Below, in pieces: positions 1-5,678 of a DNA stretch of 5,678 nt (within the stretch, counting starts at the first letter, position 1; every line of letters starts with the position of its first letter). Under the pieces are notes generated by a model, which saw only the letters and a program-made list of their open reading frames with translations, made no database searches and was not told the DNA's origin. Source of the stretch: a bacterium (GTDB lineage Bacteria > UBA3054); contig JAFYIM010000362.1 in the NCBI GenBank assembly GCA_017538635.1, positions 1 to 5,678 on the forward strand. The letters are read 5' to 3'. The translations under genes were made by a program, and so were the position numbers.

Positions 1-1
1 A

Positions 2-187
2 CTGGAGGAAGACCGCCGCATAAGCGAAGAAAAATTCGAGAAAAAATTCCAGGAAGAATGGAAAAGGGATAAATATTCCATCTATAGCGACTGGCATCAG
101 GCGGACTACGCCCGCCAAAGAGACGCCCGCATAGAGGAAATGGAAAAAGAAGAGCAGGAAGCGAAAAAAGGAGAAGACAAAGAATAG
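2..187 (+). CDS. C-terminal end of a highly charged protein (partial, unknown)
   Basis: This is an open frame running in from the left edge and closing at TAG 185-187; the N-terminus lies outside the window. The visible 61 residues are very hydrophilic: about 35 are E, K, D or R, with E most frequent. The last 20 residues are a lysine/glutamate run that would form a charged helix or disordered tail. A short aromatic patch (SIYSDWHQADYARQ) interrupts the charged stretches. There is no membrane segment and no motif I recognise. The first forward frame hits a stop early, which supports this frame. The gene converges on the minus-strand operon, with only 12 nt between its stop and the stop of the last operon gene. 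I cannot assign a function; a coiled-coil or linker tail of a larger protein is possible. Confidence 0.7.
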   Translation: MEEDRRISEEKFEKKFQEEWKRDKYSIYSDWHQADYARQRDARIEEMEKEEQEAKKGEDKE

Positions 188-207
188 GTCAGCAGGATCC
201 TAGTCTT
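162..207 (-). terminator. Possible weak terminator at the end of the operon, inside the convergent gene
   Basis: Read on the minus strand, AAGAC (207-203) can pair with GTCTT (178-174). Inside it TAGG (202-199) pairs with CCTA (188-185), plus a two-base extension and a five-base loop. A 6-nt bulge breaks the stem. A run of six T follows after a few bases, within the 3' end of the plus-strand gene. The stem is weak and asymmetric, so the call is low; the T run also simply encodes lysines of the convergent gene. Confidence 0.22.
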
Positions 208-418
208 GTTTAGTCCGGCGGAATTCCTCTAGCAGATCTTCCGTGATGTACTCATCGCTCATACAGTGAAGATCCGAAACTCCCTTGTGCAGGAGTTCGC
301 TCTCCTTGGAATGGTAGAAGAAATCCAAAGCGGCAGGAAGCGAGATCCCCGCCCTTTTGGCAAAAAGCACGATGACTCTGGAAAATTTTCTCTGCAACAA
401 AATGGGATTGGCTAGCAT
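200..418 (-). CDS. Small DUF3791-like protein, distal gene of the cassette
   Basis: A 72-residue protein, probably cytosolic and helical, with no signal peptide or membrane segment. The N-terminus reads NPILLQRKFSRVI. It is followed by a helix with FAKRAGISLPAALDFFYHS (19-37) and a C-terminal block, DLHCMSDEYITEDLLEEF (49-66). From memory this resembles a small family found beside DUF3990 proteins. The block LH-x4-EYI-x2-DL-x-E matches the protein encoded at 885-1136, so I read the two as distant paralogues of the DUF3791 group. Start: ATG 418-416 overlaps the DUF3990 stop by 7 nt (ATGCTAG). A GGGAG lies 9 nt upstream inside the DUF3990 gene, so translation is probably coupled. The last gene of the operon, it ends 12 nt from the convergent gene. 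The biochemical function is unknown; a partner or antitoxin for the DUF3990 protein is an inference. The family name is less certain than for the 885-1136 protein. Confidence 0.85.
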   Translation of the reverse strand: MLANPILLQRKFSRVIVLFAKRAGISLPAALDFFYHSKESELLHKGVSDLHCMSDEYITEDLLEEFRRTKQD

Positions 419-888
419 ATCGTCTCGCTCCCAACAAATCGCAGATACTTGTCAATGACTTCCTGCGTGCGAAGCGCCAACTGCATGCTCGGCTGCTGAA
501 GCCTCAAACGCTCAATAGCCACGCTCTTGTCGATCAAACCGCCGATGTAAAGTTCGACGGTATCGAAGACCTTGTCGTTCGCTATGCCGCCCATAACGAG
601 GTCAAAATCGCTGGAATCTTTTTCCTTGCGGCATTTTACGACAAAGTCGAGCCATTCGTCCGAATAAGCGTCAAACACCAAAGCCTTGCTCCGTTTAAAC
701 GCGTCGTCGTTCAATTCATACTTGGATATAACGGCATGCCCGTCCGATTGGACAAAACGCTCGCACCATTTCTTGGCTTGCTCTATGAGGGAAGTCGTAT
801 AGAAGCCAGGACCGAAATCGACATTTTTGCGGGAATGAAGAACGTCCGGCTTGGGAACGGCTATACTTGACGCATGATAAAGAATCAT
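412..888 (-). CDS. DUF3990-type protein, putative ADP-ribosyltransferase-fold enzyme
   Basis: A 158-residue protein of typical length for DUF3990. What is visible: an N-terminal LYHAS (3-7, His5), a central DFGPGFYTT (24-32, Tyr30), then QAKKW (37-41). A DFDLVMGGIANDKVF block follows (94-108), then a late QLALRT strand (136-141) before a short helix. An early histidine plus a G-x-G-x-Y-x-T motif is the pattern of the first two ADP-ribosyltransferase motifs. From general knowledge I believe DUF3990 belongs to that superfamily. The third acidic or Gln position could be Gln136, Gln142 or Glu143, and I cannot tell which. If active it would use NAD+ and modify an unknown target; it is probably cytosolic, with no signal peptide. 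The ATG at 888 overlaps the upstream stop by 4 nt (ATGA) and has a strong ribosome-binding site. Position between two small DUF3791-like genes suggests a functional unit. Family call is confident; enzymatic role is inference. Confidence 0.88.
   Translation of the reverse strand: MILYHASSIAVPKPDVLHSRKNVDFGPGFYTTSLIEQAKKWCERFVQSDGHAVISKYELNDDAFKRSKALVFDAYSDEWLDFVVKCRKEKDSSDFDLVMGGIANDKVFDTVELYIGGLIDKSVAIERLRLQQPSMQLALRTQEVIDKYLRFVGSETIC
428..432 (-). promoter_or_regulatory. Ribosome binding site for the distal DUF3791-like gene
   Basis: GGGAG on the minus strand lies 9 nt upstream of ATG 418 and is encoded by the last codons of the DUF3990 gene. It supports that start and, together with the 7-nt gene overlap, translational coupling. 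Confidence 0.5.
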
Positions 889-1136
889 TGCAGGACTCCT
901 TTCTTTCTCATAATTTCTATAAGGTCGTTCAAAATGTATTCTTTATCCTGCGTGTGCAGCGAGTCGTAGCAAGGAATAATGTAGGAATAAAGCAGATCGC
1001 TGTCAACGGCAAGCTTATTGTAAACCTGAGTTGGGTCAAGCTCAAGTTTTGACGCCAGATTTTCAATGCAGAAAACCACGAACGCAAGGACGTCCGGAGT
1101 TATCTCAAGTTTTTCTTTGATAAAACTATTCTGCAT
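885..1136 (-). CDS. DUF3791-domain protein, first gene of the cassette
   Basis: An 83-residue protein with the pattern I associate with DUF3791. It has an N-terminal hydrophobic helix, VLAFVVFCIENLA (16-28), then a middle helix, VYNKL (38-42). These are followed by YIIPCYDSLHTQ (52-63) and EYILNDLIEIM (66-76). The helix around 16-28 looks like a packed core helix; it is too short and carries a Glu and an Asn, so I do not call it transmembrane. The family is small, helical and of unknown biochemistry, and often sits next to DUF3990 genes. The start at ATG 1136 is the only reasonable one, but no Shine-Dalgarno is visible in the 21-nt gap after alr; an extended -10-like motif sits there instead. 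Its stop overlaps the next start by 4 nt. GC is only about 40% by hand count, clearly below alr. A role as antitoxin, immunity or specificity partner of the DUF3990 protein is inference. Confidence 0.88.
   Translation of the reverse strand: MQNSFIKEKLEITPDVLAFVVFCIENLASKLELDPTQVYNKLAVDSDLLYSYIIPCYDSLHTQDKEYILNDLIEIMRKKGVLQ
896..902 (-). promoter_or_regulatory. Ribosome binding site for the DUF3990 gene
   Basis: AAAGGAG on the minus strand sits 7 nt upstream of ATG 888, inside the 3' end of the first DUF3791 gene. It is a near-ideal Shine-Dalgarno. It fixes the DUF3990 start and shows that the middle gene has stronger visible initiation signals than the first. Confidence 0.8.
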
Positions 1137-1144
1137 GTAATGTT

Positions 1145-1153
1145 ATTTTACCA
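1145..1153 (-). promoter_or_regulatory. Possible extended -10 promoter element before the cassette
   Basis: Minus strand TGGTAAAAT fits TGn plus a -10 hexamer (TAAAAT, five of six matches to TATAAT). It lies in the AT-rich gap between alr and the first cassette gene. I see no good -35 at 17 nt. With standard spacing transcription would start near 1138, only 2 nt before ATG 1136. AT-rich sequence yields such matches by chance, so the call is tentative. Confidence 0.3.
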
Positions 1154-1157
1154 ATTT

Positions 1158-2348
1158 TTAAAGAAGCGTGGCGTTGCCCATGAGGCCGAAGTTGCTGAAA
1201 ACGAAATTGTAGAGCTGGTTGCCGTTGAACATATAGCGGCGTTCGACTCTGGCTGAGATCGCGGTGTAAACTTCGTAGGTGATGGTGCCCATCCACTCGG
1301 CCATTTCCTGGACCGTGATCTCGTTTTCGCCCTGCTTGCCCAAGAGGACGACTTCGTCGCCGGGCTTGACGACCGGTTCGTCGGGACCGAGCTCAATGGT
1401 GGTCTGGTCCATACTTATCATGCCTCTTACGGGATAGCGCTTGCCTTTTATGATGACTTCGGCGCGGTTGGAAAGGATCCTGCGGTAGCCGTCGCCGTAG
1501 CCGACTTCGATGGTCGCGATGTATGTTTCCTGGGTGGTCGTGTAAACGGCATTGTAGCCCAGGGACTGGCCTTTGGGGACTTTCTTGATCTGGGTGACTC
1601 TCGTCTTCCAGCTGAGCATAGGCTCAAGCGTCGTTCCGTGCAGCTTTTCCTTTTCGGCCTGGGAGAGCGGATATCCGCCGTAGATCAGTATGCCAGGGCG
1701 GACCATGTTGTAGCCGGTGTTGTCGATGTTGAGAACGGCTCCGCTGGCCTCCATGTGTTTCAAGGGAATGTTGACTTTTTTGGAGGCGAGGAACTTCAAG
1801 ACATCCTCGAAACGCTGCTGCTGGGCGATGGTCAGGTCGCTGGTGGGATGATCGGCCATGGCCAGGTGCGTCATGATGCCGGTGATCTTGATGTGGCTGA
1901 GTTTGGTGGCGGCGTAGATGTCGTCGAGATTGCTGTAGCGGAAGCCGACGCGGCCCATGCCGGTGTCTATTTTGAGATGCGCCTGCAAGGGCATGCCGAA
2001 GTGGCGGGCGCTCTCGTTCATAGCGCGGGCGTTGTCAATATCGACGAGCACGGGAGTGATGCTGTGGATGCAGAGGACTCTAACGTCGTCGGGTTCGGAA
2101 GGACCGAGGACAAGGATGTTGGCGTTGGGAACGTAGGAGCGGATCTCCAGGGCTTCGCGGCAGGTCGCCAGGCCCAGCCAGTCGATCCCGAATTCGAAAG
2201 CGGCCTTGGCGGTCGCTTCCAGGCCGTGGCCGTAGGCGTTGGCCTTCAGGGGCAATAGGATCTTCGTGCCCTTGGGAAGCATCTTCCTCAAGGCATCGAC
2301 ATTGTGGCGGAAAGCGTTCAGGTTAATCTCAGCCCATGAATAGTACAT
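1158..2348 (-). CDS. alr: Alanine racemase
   Basis: A PLP-dependent cytosolic enzyme interconverting L- and D-alanine, which supplies D-Ala for peptidoglycan. The 396 residues comprise an N-terminal TIM barrel (to about 235) and a C-terminal beta domain. Visible motifs are the PLP lysine in KANAYGHG (Lys35), KIDTGMGRVGF (Lys126, Arg133), His161, RPGILIYG (Arg217), the second catalytic base in SLGYNAVYT (Tyr265), GYGDGYRR (283-290) and ISMDQTTIEL (311-320, Met313, Asp314). Both catalytic residues are present, so it should be active. By eye, two cofactor-site positions differ from the Geobacillus stearothermophilus enzyme: Ala201 for Asn203 and Ala366 for Tyr354. The C-terminus runs about 25 residues past the usual end (RVERRY). 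The ATG directly follows the mnmG stop (TAAATG), with AAGGAG 6 nt upstream. Free-standing alr is usual; the position behind mnmG probably reflects co-expression rather than shared function. Confidence 0.97.
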   Translation of the reverse strand: MYYSWAEINLNAFRHNVDALRKMLPKGTKILLPLKANAYGHGLEATAKAAFEFGIDWLGLATCREALEIRSYVPNANILVLGPSEPDDVRVLCIHSITPVLVDIDNARAMNESARHFGMPLQAHLKIDTGMGRVGFRYSNLDDIYAATKLSHIKITGIMTHLAMADHPTSDLTIAQQQRFEDVLKFLASKKVNIPLKHMEASGAVLNIDNTGYNMVRPGILIYGGYPLSQAEKEKLHGTTLEPMLSWKTRVTQIKKVPKGQSLGYNAVYTTTQETYIATIEVGYGDGYRRILSNRAEVIIKGKRYPVRGMISMDQTTIELGPDEPVVKPGDEVVLLGKQGENEITVQEMAEWMGTITYEVYTAISARVERRYMFNGNQLYNFVFSNFGLMGNATLL

Positions 2349-4178
2349 TTATTTCTCCTTATCCTTGGCGTCAAGGTAAGCTGCCAGAAGCGCAGCGTCG
2401 GCGGGGGTTATGCCGGGAATGCGGGCGGCCTGGCCGACGGTCAGGGGGCGGACGGCGCTGAATTTCTGCAGGGCTTCTATCCTCAAGCCCAGGACCTCCT
2501 TGTAATCGTAGTCGGGCGGGATCCTTTTGCGGTCGAATTTCTTGGCGCGCGCCACCTGGCGTTCCTCTCTTACTATGTAGCCGTCATACTTACAGCGTAT
2601 CAAAATCTCTTCCCAAATGGAATCGTCGCAGTCATTAAGACCGAGAGTATTTCTATGGAGAGCCTCTTCTTCTTTCGTAATATCCGGACGACCCAGGACT
2701 CTTATCATGGGCGTTCCTTCGGAGTATTTTTCCCTCAGGCGTTCCAGCTCGGAATTTATCTTCGCTTCCTTTTCCGCGACCAGATCAAGCTCCGCTTTGT
2801 CTATGAGGCCGTATTCCAAGGAAGTTTTGGCGAAGCGGTAGATGGAGGAATCGGCCCTTAAGATCAGGCGGTATTCCGCCCTGCTGGTGAACATCCTGTA
2901 AGGTTCGTCAACGCCCAAAGTGACAAGGTCGTCTATCATGACGCCTAGGTATCCTTCGGATCTGGCTGGAATGAAAGGCGGAAGTCCCTTTAAGCTTGCG
3001 GCGGCGTTGATGCCGGCGGCGATCCCCTGCGCGGCCGCTTCCTCGTAGCCGGAGGTGCCGTTGATCTGGCCCGCAAGGTAAAGGTTCGGGACGATCTTGC
3101 TTTCAAGGGTGGGATAAAGGTCTCTGGGGTCGGAATAGTCGTATTCTATGGCGTAGGCGGGATGAATGAAGACTGCCTTTTCAAGCCCGGGAATGGAATG
3201 CACGAAAGCTTCCTGCACGTCCCTTGGCAGGCTCGTGGAGATGCCGTTGGGATAATAGCTCTCGGTGTCGTTGCCTTCGGGCTCCAGAAAAACATGGTGC
3301 GTTTCCTTGTCTTTGAAGCGCACGATCTTGTCTTCAATGGAGGGGCAGTATCTCGGGCCGATGCCTGTGATCTCGCCGCCGTAAAGCGCGGACTTGTCGA
3401 GATTGTCGGTGATGATCTTCTTCGTTTCCGCGGTGGTGTGCGTGATGTAGCAGGGCAATTGATTGATCGCATCAAGCGCGGGCGGTCTTCTGTAGCGGAA
3501 GGAAAAAGCGGGCGGGTCTATGTCGCCTGGCTGAAGCTGCGTTTTACTAAAGTCGATGGAAGACTTAAGGAGCCTGGGCGGAGTGCCGGTCTTCAACCTG
3601 CCTAAGTTGAGGCCTAAGTTTTTCAGGGAGTCGGAGAGTTTTTTGGCGGGAGGATCGCCCAGACGTCCGCCTTCCGTTTTCTCTTTGCCGATGTGCATCA
3701 GGCCTTTTAAGAAAGTGCCGACCGTCAGGATGATCTTTTGGGCGGTCAGTTTCGTTCCGTCTGCTAAGAGAACGCCGGAAAGTTTGCCGTTGTCTGTCGT
3801 CAGCTCTTCCGCCAGACCCACGACTATCGTAAGGTTAGGAGTGTTCTTGAGGGCCGTCTGCATGTAGGCGGAGTAAGAGCTGCGCTGGGACTGCGCTCTC
3901 AGGGCTCTGACGGCCGGGCCTTTGCTGAGATTGAGAACGCGGTACTGCAAGCCGGAATTGTCGGCAGCCAGGCACATCAGGCCGCCCAGCGCGTCAACTT
4001 CGCAAGCCAGGTTCGTTTTGCCCAGTCCCCCGATGGCGGGGTTGCAGGACATCTGCGCGATCGTTTCAAAACTTATGGTGACAAGGGCGGTCTTTAGGCC
4101 CATTTTCGCGCAGATATGGGAAGCTTCTATGCCGGCGTGTCCCCCGCCGATGACTATGATGTCAAAGTCAGAAGTCAT
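2349..4178 (-). CDS. mnmG: tRNA uridine-5-carboxymethylaminomethyl modification enzyme MnmG (GidA)
   Basis: The FAD-binding subunit of the MnmEG complex, which installs (carboxymethyl)aminomethyl groups at C5 of wobble U34 in certain tRNAs using FAD, NADH and methylenetetrahydrofolate. The 609 residues are close to the family length. Visible: the dinucleotide-binding [12 protein letters not shown] (9-20), SCNPAIGG with conserved Cys45 (44-51), [12 protein letters not shown] (85-96), the first family signature [11 protein letters not shown] with Cys278 (274-284), and the second signature [22 protein letters not shown] (371 onward). A C-terminal helical domain with [21 protein letters not shown] near the end should contact MnmE and tRNA. 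The segment RADSSIYR (441-448) departs from the usual R-x-DN-x-D-x-R. Start: ATG 4178 gives the normal N-terminus. The frame stays open upstream to 4289, but those 37 residues are low-complexity and overlap nnr. The start overlaps the nnr stop by 11 nt with no obvious Shine-Dalgarno, suggesting translational coupling. Confidence 0.97.
2355..2360 (-). promoter_or_regulatory. Ribosome binding site for alr
   Basis: AAGGAG on the minus strand lies 6 nt upstream of ATG 2348 and is embedded in the last codons of mnmG. It confirms the alr start. It also shows that the host uses canonical Shine-Dalgarno initiation. Confidence 0.85.
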
Positions 4179-5667
4179 AGCTGAGGGCGCGGCCCAGGTA
4201 ATCACTGAAATCGCTGGCGGTGCGGCCGCCAATTGGCGCGGCGAAATCAGCCGCAAGGCCGTGGTAGTAGGCCGCCAGCATGGCCGCATCGTAGGTATTT
4301 AGGCCTTGGGCCAGGAAAGCGCCTGTGAGGCCCGTAAGCAGGTCTCCCGTTCCGGCAGTGGAAAGATATGGGTTTCCGCTCAAATTGACGGCAGAAAGCC
4401 TTTGAGGGGCCTTTACGACCGTGTGGTGGCCTTTCAGCAACACGGTAACGTTCAAATTCTCGCAAAGATCAGCTGCGGCTTCTTTGCGGGCGAAATCGTC
4501 CGTTTCCGGAGCGTAGTCCATGAGGCGTTTGAATTCGCCGAGGTGCGGAGTGAAAACTAGCTCAAGGTCTTCGGGAACTCCGAAGCGTTCTCTGGCGTAA
4601 ATGGAGAGGGCGCCGGCGTCCCAGATCTGCTTTTTTATCGGAGAGCCTGCCAGAGCTTTCAAAAGCGCGGAATGGTATTCGTCGTCGGGAAGGCCCGGAC
4701 CGGCGGCGGCCGCGTCGCATTTTTCGGCAAGCTGCGCAAGTTTGTCGAGGTCCTCCTCAAGCCTGCCGGAAAGCGTTAATGTCAGAATGTGCGGGAGCGC
4801 GGAATTGAAGGCGGGCTCCAGTTCTTTCGGGATGACAGCCGTGACTAAGCCTGCGCCGCCTATGCTTGCGGCTTTAGCGGCTAGGAGAGCGGCGCCGCCC
4901 ATTTGGGAAGCACCGGCCAAAAGCAGAAGGTGTCCCCTTTTGTGCTTGTAGGAAGCGTTATCGGGCTTAGGCAGGAGCGCTCTGGCGTCTTTTAAGGAGA
5001 GCGCAAAGAAAGGACTCTCGGCGTTCCTGGGAGCCGGCAGCCCGATGTCGATTATTTCCGTGCGGCCCAGGAACTCACTTGCTTTCGTCAAGCTCGCGAG
5101 TTTGCCCTGCCCGAAAGTGACGGTCCAATCAGCCTTTACAAAAAGGCGGCTCTCGGATCCGTCAGCATTAAGCCCGCTCGGGATGTCGAGGGCGAGTTTC
5201 CTGGCCGGATGAGCGTTCACGGCGCTGATAGCGGAGGCTAAAAGCGCGTTGGCGCTGCCCTTGAAGCCGGTGCCGGTCAGTCCGTCAATTATGACGTCGC
5301 CCTGCCAGATGGAAAGGTAATCCGAAACTTCTTTGGGATCGTTTAAGGATGAGATCTTTTTCCCCTGCGCTTCAAGCCTGCGGAATTGGATGAGCGCGTC
5401 CCCTTTCAGTTTAAGAATTGGACCTAAGAGCGCGACGTCGCAGTGCAGTCCGGATTGGATAAGGTAGCGCGCTGCGACCCAGGCGTCGCCGCCGTTGTTG
5501 CCGGCGCCTCCCAAAACGAGGAAGCGTTTTGATGTCGGCGCGAAGACGTCCGTCAAGAACCGGAAAGCGGCGTAGCCGGCCCTTTCCATGAGAACGAGTC
5601 CGGGAGTGCCTTGCGCTATCGCGGAGGCGTCAAGCGACCTTATCTCATCCGCTTTGAGAAAGTACAT
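4168..5667 (-). CDS. nnr: Bifunctional NAD(P)H-hydrate epimerase / ADP-dependent NAD(P)H-hydrate dehydratase
   Basis: A metabolite-repair enzyme that restores NAD(P)H from its hydrated, inactive form. The N-terminal YjeF_N domain (about 1-212) epimerises R- and S-NAD(P)HX; the C-terminal ribokinase-like domain (about 222-497) dehydrates the S form using ADP. Epimerase motifs: LMERAG (26-31), GAGNNGGD (54-61), DGLTGTG (128-134), DIPSGLNAD (161-169). Dehydratase motifs: [14 protein letters not shown] (240-253), GPGL (323-326), DAGAL (350-354), TPHLGE (373-378), LKGHHT (411-416), and [11 protein letters not shown] (436-446) with the catalytic Asp442. The length of 499 is normal for the fused form. 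The N-terminal [13 protein letters not shown] is the expected beginning, so ATG 5667 is well supported. Only 11 bases lie upstream in the window (CTTTTTTTCCC on this strand) and no ribosome-binding site is visible; the promoter, if here, is outside. It is the most upstream gene seen and overlaps mnmG by 11 nt. Confidence 0.97.
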
Positions 5668-5678
5668 GGGAAAAAAAG

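Follow-up and report, generated by a model that had tools for sequence, protein, structure and literature searches.

What is the role of three small, overlapping genes that stand directly behind the alanine racemase gene alr in one bacterial genome and at other sites in its close relatives? The genes lie in a stretch of 5,678 nucleotides (nt) (GenBank assembly GCA_017538635.1, contig JAFYIM010000362.1, positions 1 to 5,678; here called the window) and are transcribed contiguously from the minus strand in the order A-B-C (Table 1). We consider it probable that this cassette is a mobile tripartite toxin-antitoxin (TA) module, composed of an NAD+-consuming toxin, B, and two small partners, A and C. 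According to this model, B would be an enzyme with an ADP-ribosyltransferase (ART) fold that consumes NAD+ at a His-Tyr-Gln (H-Y-Q) site, either by hydrolysis or by ADP-ribosylation of some target, and would poison its own cell when free. A and C, small helical proteins, would jointly bind and silence B, the overlapping reading frames would couple synthesis of the three proteins, and loss of a partner, for example through plasmid loss or phage interference, would free the toxin.

Pfam assigned B to DUF3990 (PF13151; E 3.5e-46, 157.1 bits against a cut-off of 32.2) and both A and C to DUF3791 (PF12668), the former clearly (E 9.7e-21, 74 bits against a cut-off of 25) and the latter just over the cut-off (E 4.7e-06, 26.9 bits). 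DUF3791 was the only Pfam match of either partner at E up to 1. All three proteins strongly matched the profiles of PDC-M13, a candidate system in PADLOC-DB, which collects proteins of established and candidate defence systems (B, 5.7e-59; A, 3.9e-30 to PDLC04434, PDC-M13A; C, 4.5e-31 to PDLC04442, PDC-M13C), and no difference from that system was found. The original prediction, made from the sequence alone, had placed three minus-strand open reading frames (ORFs) with 4-nt and 7-nt overlaps at exactly the coordinates recovered here, and the His5 and DFGPGFYTT motif that it had read in the middle protein are both present. Its suggestion that the system was undescribed did not hold, PDC-M13 being already catalogued and counted 3,324 times among 6,530 genomes in a rumen survey. 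The PADLOC profiles of PDC-M13 carry no function or description.

A scan of named genomes with B as the query yielded 33 loci, four of them in close relatives of the window (L001-L004). Matches to A, B and C were all present in 31 of the 33. Of the two exceptions, one ends inside B (L030) and the other has no A/C profile match yet carries two small genes after B (L032). Comparison of B with its L001 counterpart revealed 16, 16 and 68 differences at codon positions 1, 2 and 3, respectively. Because A and C accompany B in the same order in 31 of the 33 loci and differences from relatives fall mostly at third positions, the genes are not chance ORFs.

B was predicted with high confidence to adopt an ART fold, and the nearest solved folds are the TA toxins ParT, MbcT and RES. 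Three residues are near-invariant among 153 sequences (H5 in 151, Y30 in 152, Q136 in 151), and their equivalence to the catalytic positions of ARTs is presumed from strand order. The earlier proposal that B is an NAD+-using effector is thus supported computationally in its fold and its triad; the NAD+ chemistry and the toxicity are inferred. One publication counts DUF3990 as a member of the Pfam ART clan, and a description of the Serratia Rhs5 protein places a DUF3990 domain in its C-terminal region, accompanied by a presumed immunity gene. Pfam returned no RES match for B at E up to 1, only DUF3990 and a below-cut-off match to Acb1.

A divergent branch of DUF3990, in which B is at least 205 amino acids (aa) long, has a different partner. 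Here, a partner ORF follows B in 36 of 42 rows and matches HTH_3 in 27 of the 35 partners scanned (one with masked sequence was left out). In L145 (5001-6291) and similar loci the partner gene behind the divergent DUF3990 gene encodes about 212 aa, and the best match of the L145 B protein is PDC-M42A. Helix-turn-helix domains occur in many antitoxins, where they bind the antitoxin's own promoter.

The partners of B appear from their sequences to be paralogous, an assignment that rests on their common Pfam family since the A-type and C-type profiles, when compared directly, gave a probability of only 1.75%. The C-terminal block that A and C had been said to share does lie inside the DUF3791 match. 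The best evidence that C-like and A-like parts act as a pair is a natural single chain. On the Bacteroides plasmid pBF9343 one 149-aa protein precedes B, with a match to the A-type profile in the C-terminal half and a weak one to the C-type profile in the N-terminal half. A database homologue matched both PADLOC profiles (1.4e-17, A-type; 1.1e-15, C-type), and profile-profile comparison of the C-A fusion recovered both at the expected positions (98% and 36% probability, respectively). The fusion was modelled as all-helical with less certainty than B (predicted local distance difference test score, pLDDT, 86.8; predicted template modelling score, pTM, 0.54; pLDDT range of five models 66.6 to 86.8), and the model had no convincing structural relative. 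The proposal that B has two small partners is supported by the 31 of 33 loci that hold both genes, and the survey adds that these are sometimes fused to each other and that relatives of B reside on plasmids. On pBF9343 (L042:2555-4615) two more genes come after the C-A fusion and B, one encoding 86 aa and one of the zeta toxin family. Evolutionary distances of the three proteins are correlated (A-B 0.70, C-B 0.69, A-C 0.59; n=40; none of 1,000 permutations reached these values), for which shared descent alone can suffice.

To define a core set, 43 rows were selected in which the A and C matches both exceeded 75 bits; these represent 42 loci (L033, with a broken B, is counted twice), include L001-L004 and leave out the window copy. 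A and B overlap by 4 nt in 40 of these rows; for B and C the overlap measures 4 nt in 33 rows and 7 nt in four. An extended survey contained 157 distinct B rows, fragments included, among which A/C-type matches flank B on both sides in 61, upstream only in 14, downstream only in 19 and on neither side in 63, counts that depend on profile thresholds and on query-biased sampling. In many of the 63, B is accompanied by partners of other types. The gene order is also permuted, with B-C-A found in, for example, L113, L141, L072, L104, L056 and L155, and the PDC-M13 profiles cover both arrangements. Some B-C-A sets are preceded by a small gene. In L233 (3010-3351), beside a phage terminase small subunit gene, it has a below-cut-off match to DUF6788 and overlaps B by 4 nt, creating a four-gene set.

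A and C may form a joint antitoxin in complex with B, and loss of a partner would be the trigger. An alternative is that A and C are folding or targeting subunits and that a B-A-C assembly is the active enzyme, acting on a specific host or phage target. Such a role would have a precedent in CmdA, which is reported to be required for accumulation of CmdT (PMC11618068), and it would suit a docking domain that A continues a longer upstream protein in frame in five of the 43 core rows, the proteins being unrelated. In L015 the fused protein is an RNA uracil methyltransferase, in L016 a WYL regulator, in L025 a serine recombinase and in L027 PglX, whereas that of L023 is unassigned. A SIR2-like neighbour of L023, guessed by eye, was not borne out by Pfam. 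However, among the 31 loci with all three genes B is broken in three (L029, L031, L033), and here C is intact in all three and A in L031, as would be expected of antitoxins. The plasmid locations and the helix-turn-helix partners of the sister branch likewise favour a TA system. In G343, on the other hand, both A and B contain stops. On balance we regard the folding or targeting alternative as unlikely.

The window copy ends a tight nnr-mnmG-alr run, 21 nt downstream of alr, a setting that the original prediction had not mentioned, and a consensus scan found no promoter-like site between alr and A. This location would suit a non-toxic housekeeping or regulatory ART operon with no role in conflict. 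Several observations make that reading very improbable. In the four close relatives, whose Alr proteins are 93, 90, 82 and 81% identical to that of the window, the cassette is absent behind alr and present elsewhere. At alr, DNA similarity between the window and the relatives breaks off somewhere from 20 nt ahead of the alr stop codon to 2 nt past it, while similarity to the relatives' cassettes extends from one base before the A start codon to 16-23 nt before the end of C. The positions of these borders indicate that the moving unit consists of the three ORFs and little else. The distribution is also patchy: in a draw of 391 genomes from the class to which Lachnoanaerobaculum orale belongs (that of the L027 genome), DUF3990 occurs in 80, in 78 of them above the cut-off, with one to seven matches per genome. 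Relatives of B were further detected in 70 of 72,556 plasmid records and in four of 50,697 phage records, the latter all unannotated fecal contigs. Contigs of a viral collection gave 14 loci when an alignment was the query and none with either a single sequence or the C-A alignment; where the order was read, it is A-B-C in L227-L231 (with a short B in L231) and B-C-A in L232-L235.

Two further ideas were rejected. Terminal repeats do not account for the mobility of the cassette, as positions 100-1250 hold one 16-nt direct and one 16-nt inverted pair, both within the cassette. Nor does the cassette generally ride on upstream genes, for a same-strand ORF of at least 100 aa ends no more than 60 nt from where the A domain begins in only eight of the 43 core rows, four of them L001-L004, and the fusions of A number only the five given above.

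DUF3791 was found in at least 62 of the 391 genomes, at least 60 above the cut-off, all DUF3791 counts in this draw being lower bounds since for many genomes the scoring covered 15 candidates only. Six loci (L198, L200, L202, L205, L213, L216) carry DUF3791 genes with no DUF3990 found in the same draw. They possibly represent orphan antitoxins (in L202 C and A stand together and B is missing), or contig ends may hide B (L200). Few open frames that surround a DUF3791 match exceed 190 aa in the draw (again as lower bounds): G038, the centre genome of the draw, chosen because of L027 (995 and 393 aa), G027, which corresponds to L016 and was known beforehand (428 aa), G072 (254 aa) and, below the cut-off, G249 (565 aa) and G343 (197 aa).

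A related alternative, which overlaps with the TA model, is that the cassette is an anti-phage abortive-infection module in which a phage disturbs A or C and so releases B. PDC-M13 is listed in PADLOC-DB as a phage-defence candidate, a proven three-part ART defence exists in CmdTAC (PMC11618068), and individual cassettes are placed suggestively. L016 adjoins hsdM/hsdS and L024 adjoins cas1/cas2/csm6. In L098 (884-2999) a B-C-A cassette lies between two hsdS pieces, with hsdM-like and hsdR-like ORFs, named by eye, beyond; because the first hsdS piece has a stop codon of its own, the cassette is nested within an operon here and not inserted in frame. The fourth case, L027, is described below. 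Restriction-modification (RM), bacteriophage exclusion (BREX) or CRISPR genes were nevertheless near only five of 94 M13-type rows (L016, L024, L027, L098, L162) and one of 63 rows of other DUF3990 types, in flanks of varying extent and without a background rate; of the five, only L162 is an independent find, since the other four supplied query proteins of the count. A strong link to defence islands is not supported by these counts, and defence-gene neighbours are not the rule for the cassette. The window copy belongs to a run of housekeeping genes, and no phage test of the cassette was found in the literature. Phage defence is a possible role, to which the evidence points weakly, and we put the abortive-infection reading at somewhat less than an even chance. 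The TA model depends neither on the paralogy of A and C nor on defence neighbours, so its standing is unchanged by the weaker form of both.

In L027 (3032-7646) the whole A-B-C cassette lies in frame within the BREX gene pglX, with A on the N-terminal part and C on the C-terminal part. The first ORF covers PglX profile positions 1-884 and continues into A, B comes next, and the last ORF begins with C and continues into PglX profile positions 875-1168 of 1174. The locus also contains brxC, pglZ and brxL. The A-bearing half was found as a database protein in seven contigs, the longest of which (217,714 bases) is not that of L027 (199,751 bases). Some of the seven may be copies of one data set, but the arrangement is unlikely to be an assembly error. 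When further long proteins containing an A domain were sought, by a method that reaches close relatives only, just the L027 protein itself was found. Aligned to the solved PglX chain 8c45 (we take 8c45/8q56 to be the PglX protein of the structure paper cited next), the N half extends to residue 888 and the C half starts at residue 972, the stretch between being aligned by the PADLOC profile only. According to that paper, residues 662-849 form the target recognition domain and 850-960 comprise two spacer helices (PMC11341690). The insertion thus lies behind the target recognition domain, near or in the spacer helices.

One could imagine this cassette as a built-in BREX guard, a split tether in which the A-C pair holds the PglX halves together and keeps B silent, the pairing being supposed because natural C-A fusions suggest it. 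Restraint of the toxin would then depend on an intact defence protein, and pulling PglX apart or blocking its tail would free an NAD+-burning toxin. We think this distinctly unlikely; if the insertion is functional, it would be a new way of wiring a suicide switch to a defence protein.

Among known systems, CmdTAC shares with the cassette three co-encoded proteins and an ART toxin whose triad is HY-[E,D,Q] (PMC11618068). CmdC is SecB-like, whereas A and C match DUF3791 only in Pfam and a SecB-like third component is lacking. The cassette is not a member of CmdTAC, but of the known systems this is the one whose logic it would most resemble, the antitoxin and the chaperone being replaced by two DUF3791 partners. 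ParT, MbcT and Xre-RES toxins resemble B in fold; B differs in lacking a Pfam RES match, in having His as the first triad residue and in its DUF3791 partners. The partners of RES-type toxins are Xre/DUF2384-type proteins. TNT, Tse6 and Tne2 are secreted or injected effectors, each with a single immunity protein. They carry a Gln in a similar active-site position, which in TNT is important and not essential (PMC6398120). No sequence match of B to these three proteins was seen in Pfam or in further homology comparison. HipBST also combines a toxin and two partner proteins in one operon, and differs in that the toxin is a kinase. The PrrC anticodon nuclease is a toxin inside a type I RM operon and is restrained by the restriction enzyme itself. 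Nesting in a restriction operon recurs in L098 and, within BREX, in L027, although PrrC is an RNase and not an ART. Of the two HipBST partners, HipS has no relationship to HipB.

The cassette in the window is an unremarkable member of DUF3990/DUF3791/PDC-M13, outside the Pfam RES family, catalogued and apparently uncharacterised. The three names are scarce in the literature searched, which lay mostly outside subscription journals and yielded neither a functional test of the cassette nor an assigned role for DUF3990 or DUF3791. New here are the unifying anatomy (a two-part partner set, the order permutation, the natural fusion and an H-Y-Q site with an ART fold) and the pglX insertion. Both families occur widely among gut and rumen bacteria, and an ART-fold toxin with a two-part antitoxin, if true, would explain a large uncharacterised class.

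Table 1. Features of the cassette and its edge in the window
Feature	Position	Strand	Source
Gene A, 83-aa A-type DUF3791 protein, putative antitoxin subunit 1	885-1136	-	Pfam, PADLOC
Gene B, 158-aa DUF3990 protein, predicted ART fold, putative NAD+-consuming toxin	412-888	-	
Gene C, 72-aa C-type DUF3791 protein, putative antitoxin subunit 2	200-418	-	Pfam, PADLOC
A/B stop-start overlap, 4 nt, ATGA	885-888	-	ORF check
B/C stop-start overlap, 7 nt, ATGCTAG	412-418	-	ORF check
Inferred triad in B: codons of His5, Tyr30, Gln136	874-876, 799-801, 481-483	-	
alr (alanine racemase), upstream host gene, edge of cassette	1158-2348	-	Pfam Ala_racemase N + C

On the other side of the cassette, a plus-strand ORF of 61 aa (2-187), the C-terminal end of a Lys/Glu-rich protein, converges with C. 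It has no Pfam match and was not found in the four relatives, where the search had no positive control. No Rfam RNA was detected in the window at gathering thresholds. Elsewhere, a DUF3791-like gene overlaps a DUF3990-Fic fusion (L020:2422-3536), which places two different toxin-type domains in one chain, and two below-cut-off DUF3990 matches (G330:C23:2541-3380) lie in a single 2,580-aa open frame that is perhaps a large polymorphic toxin.
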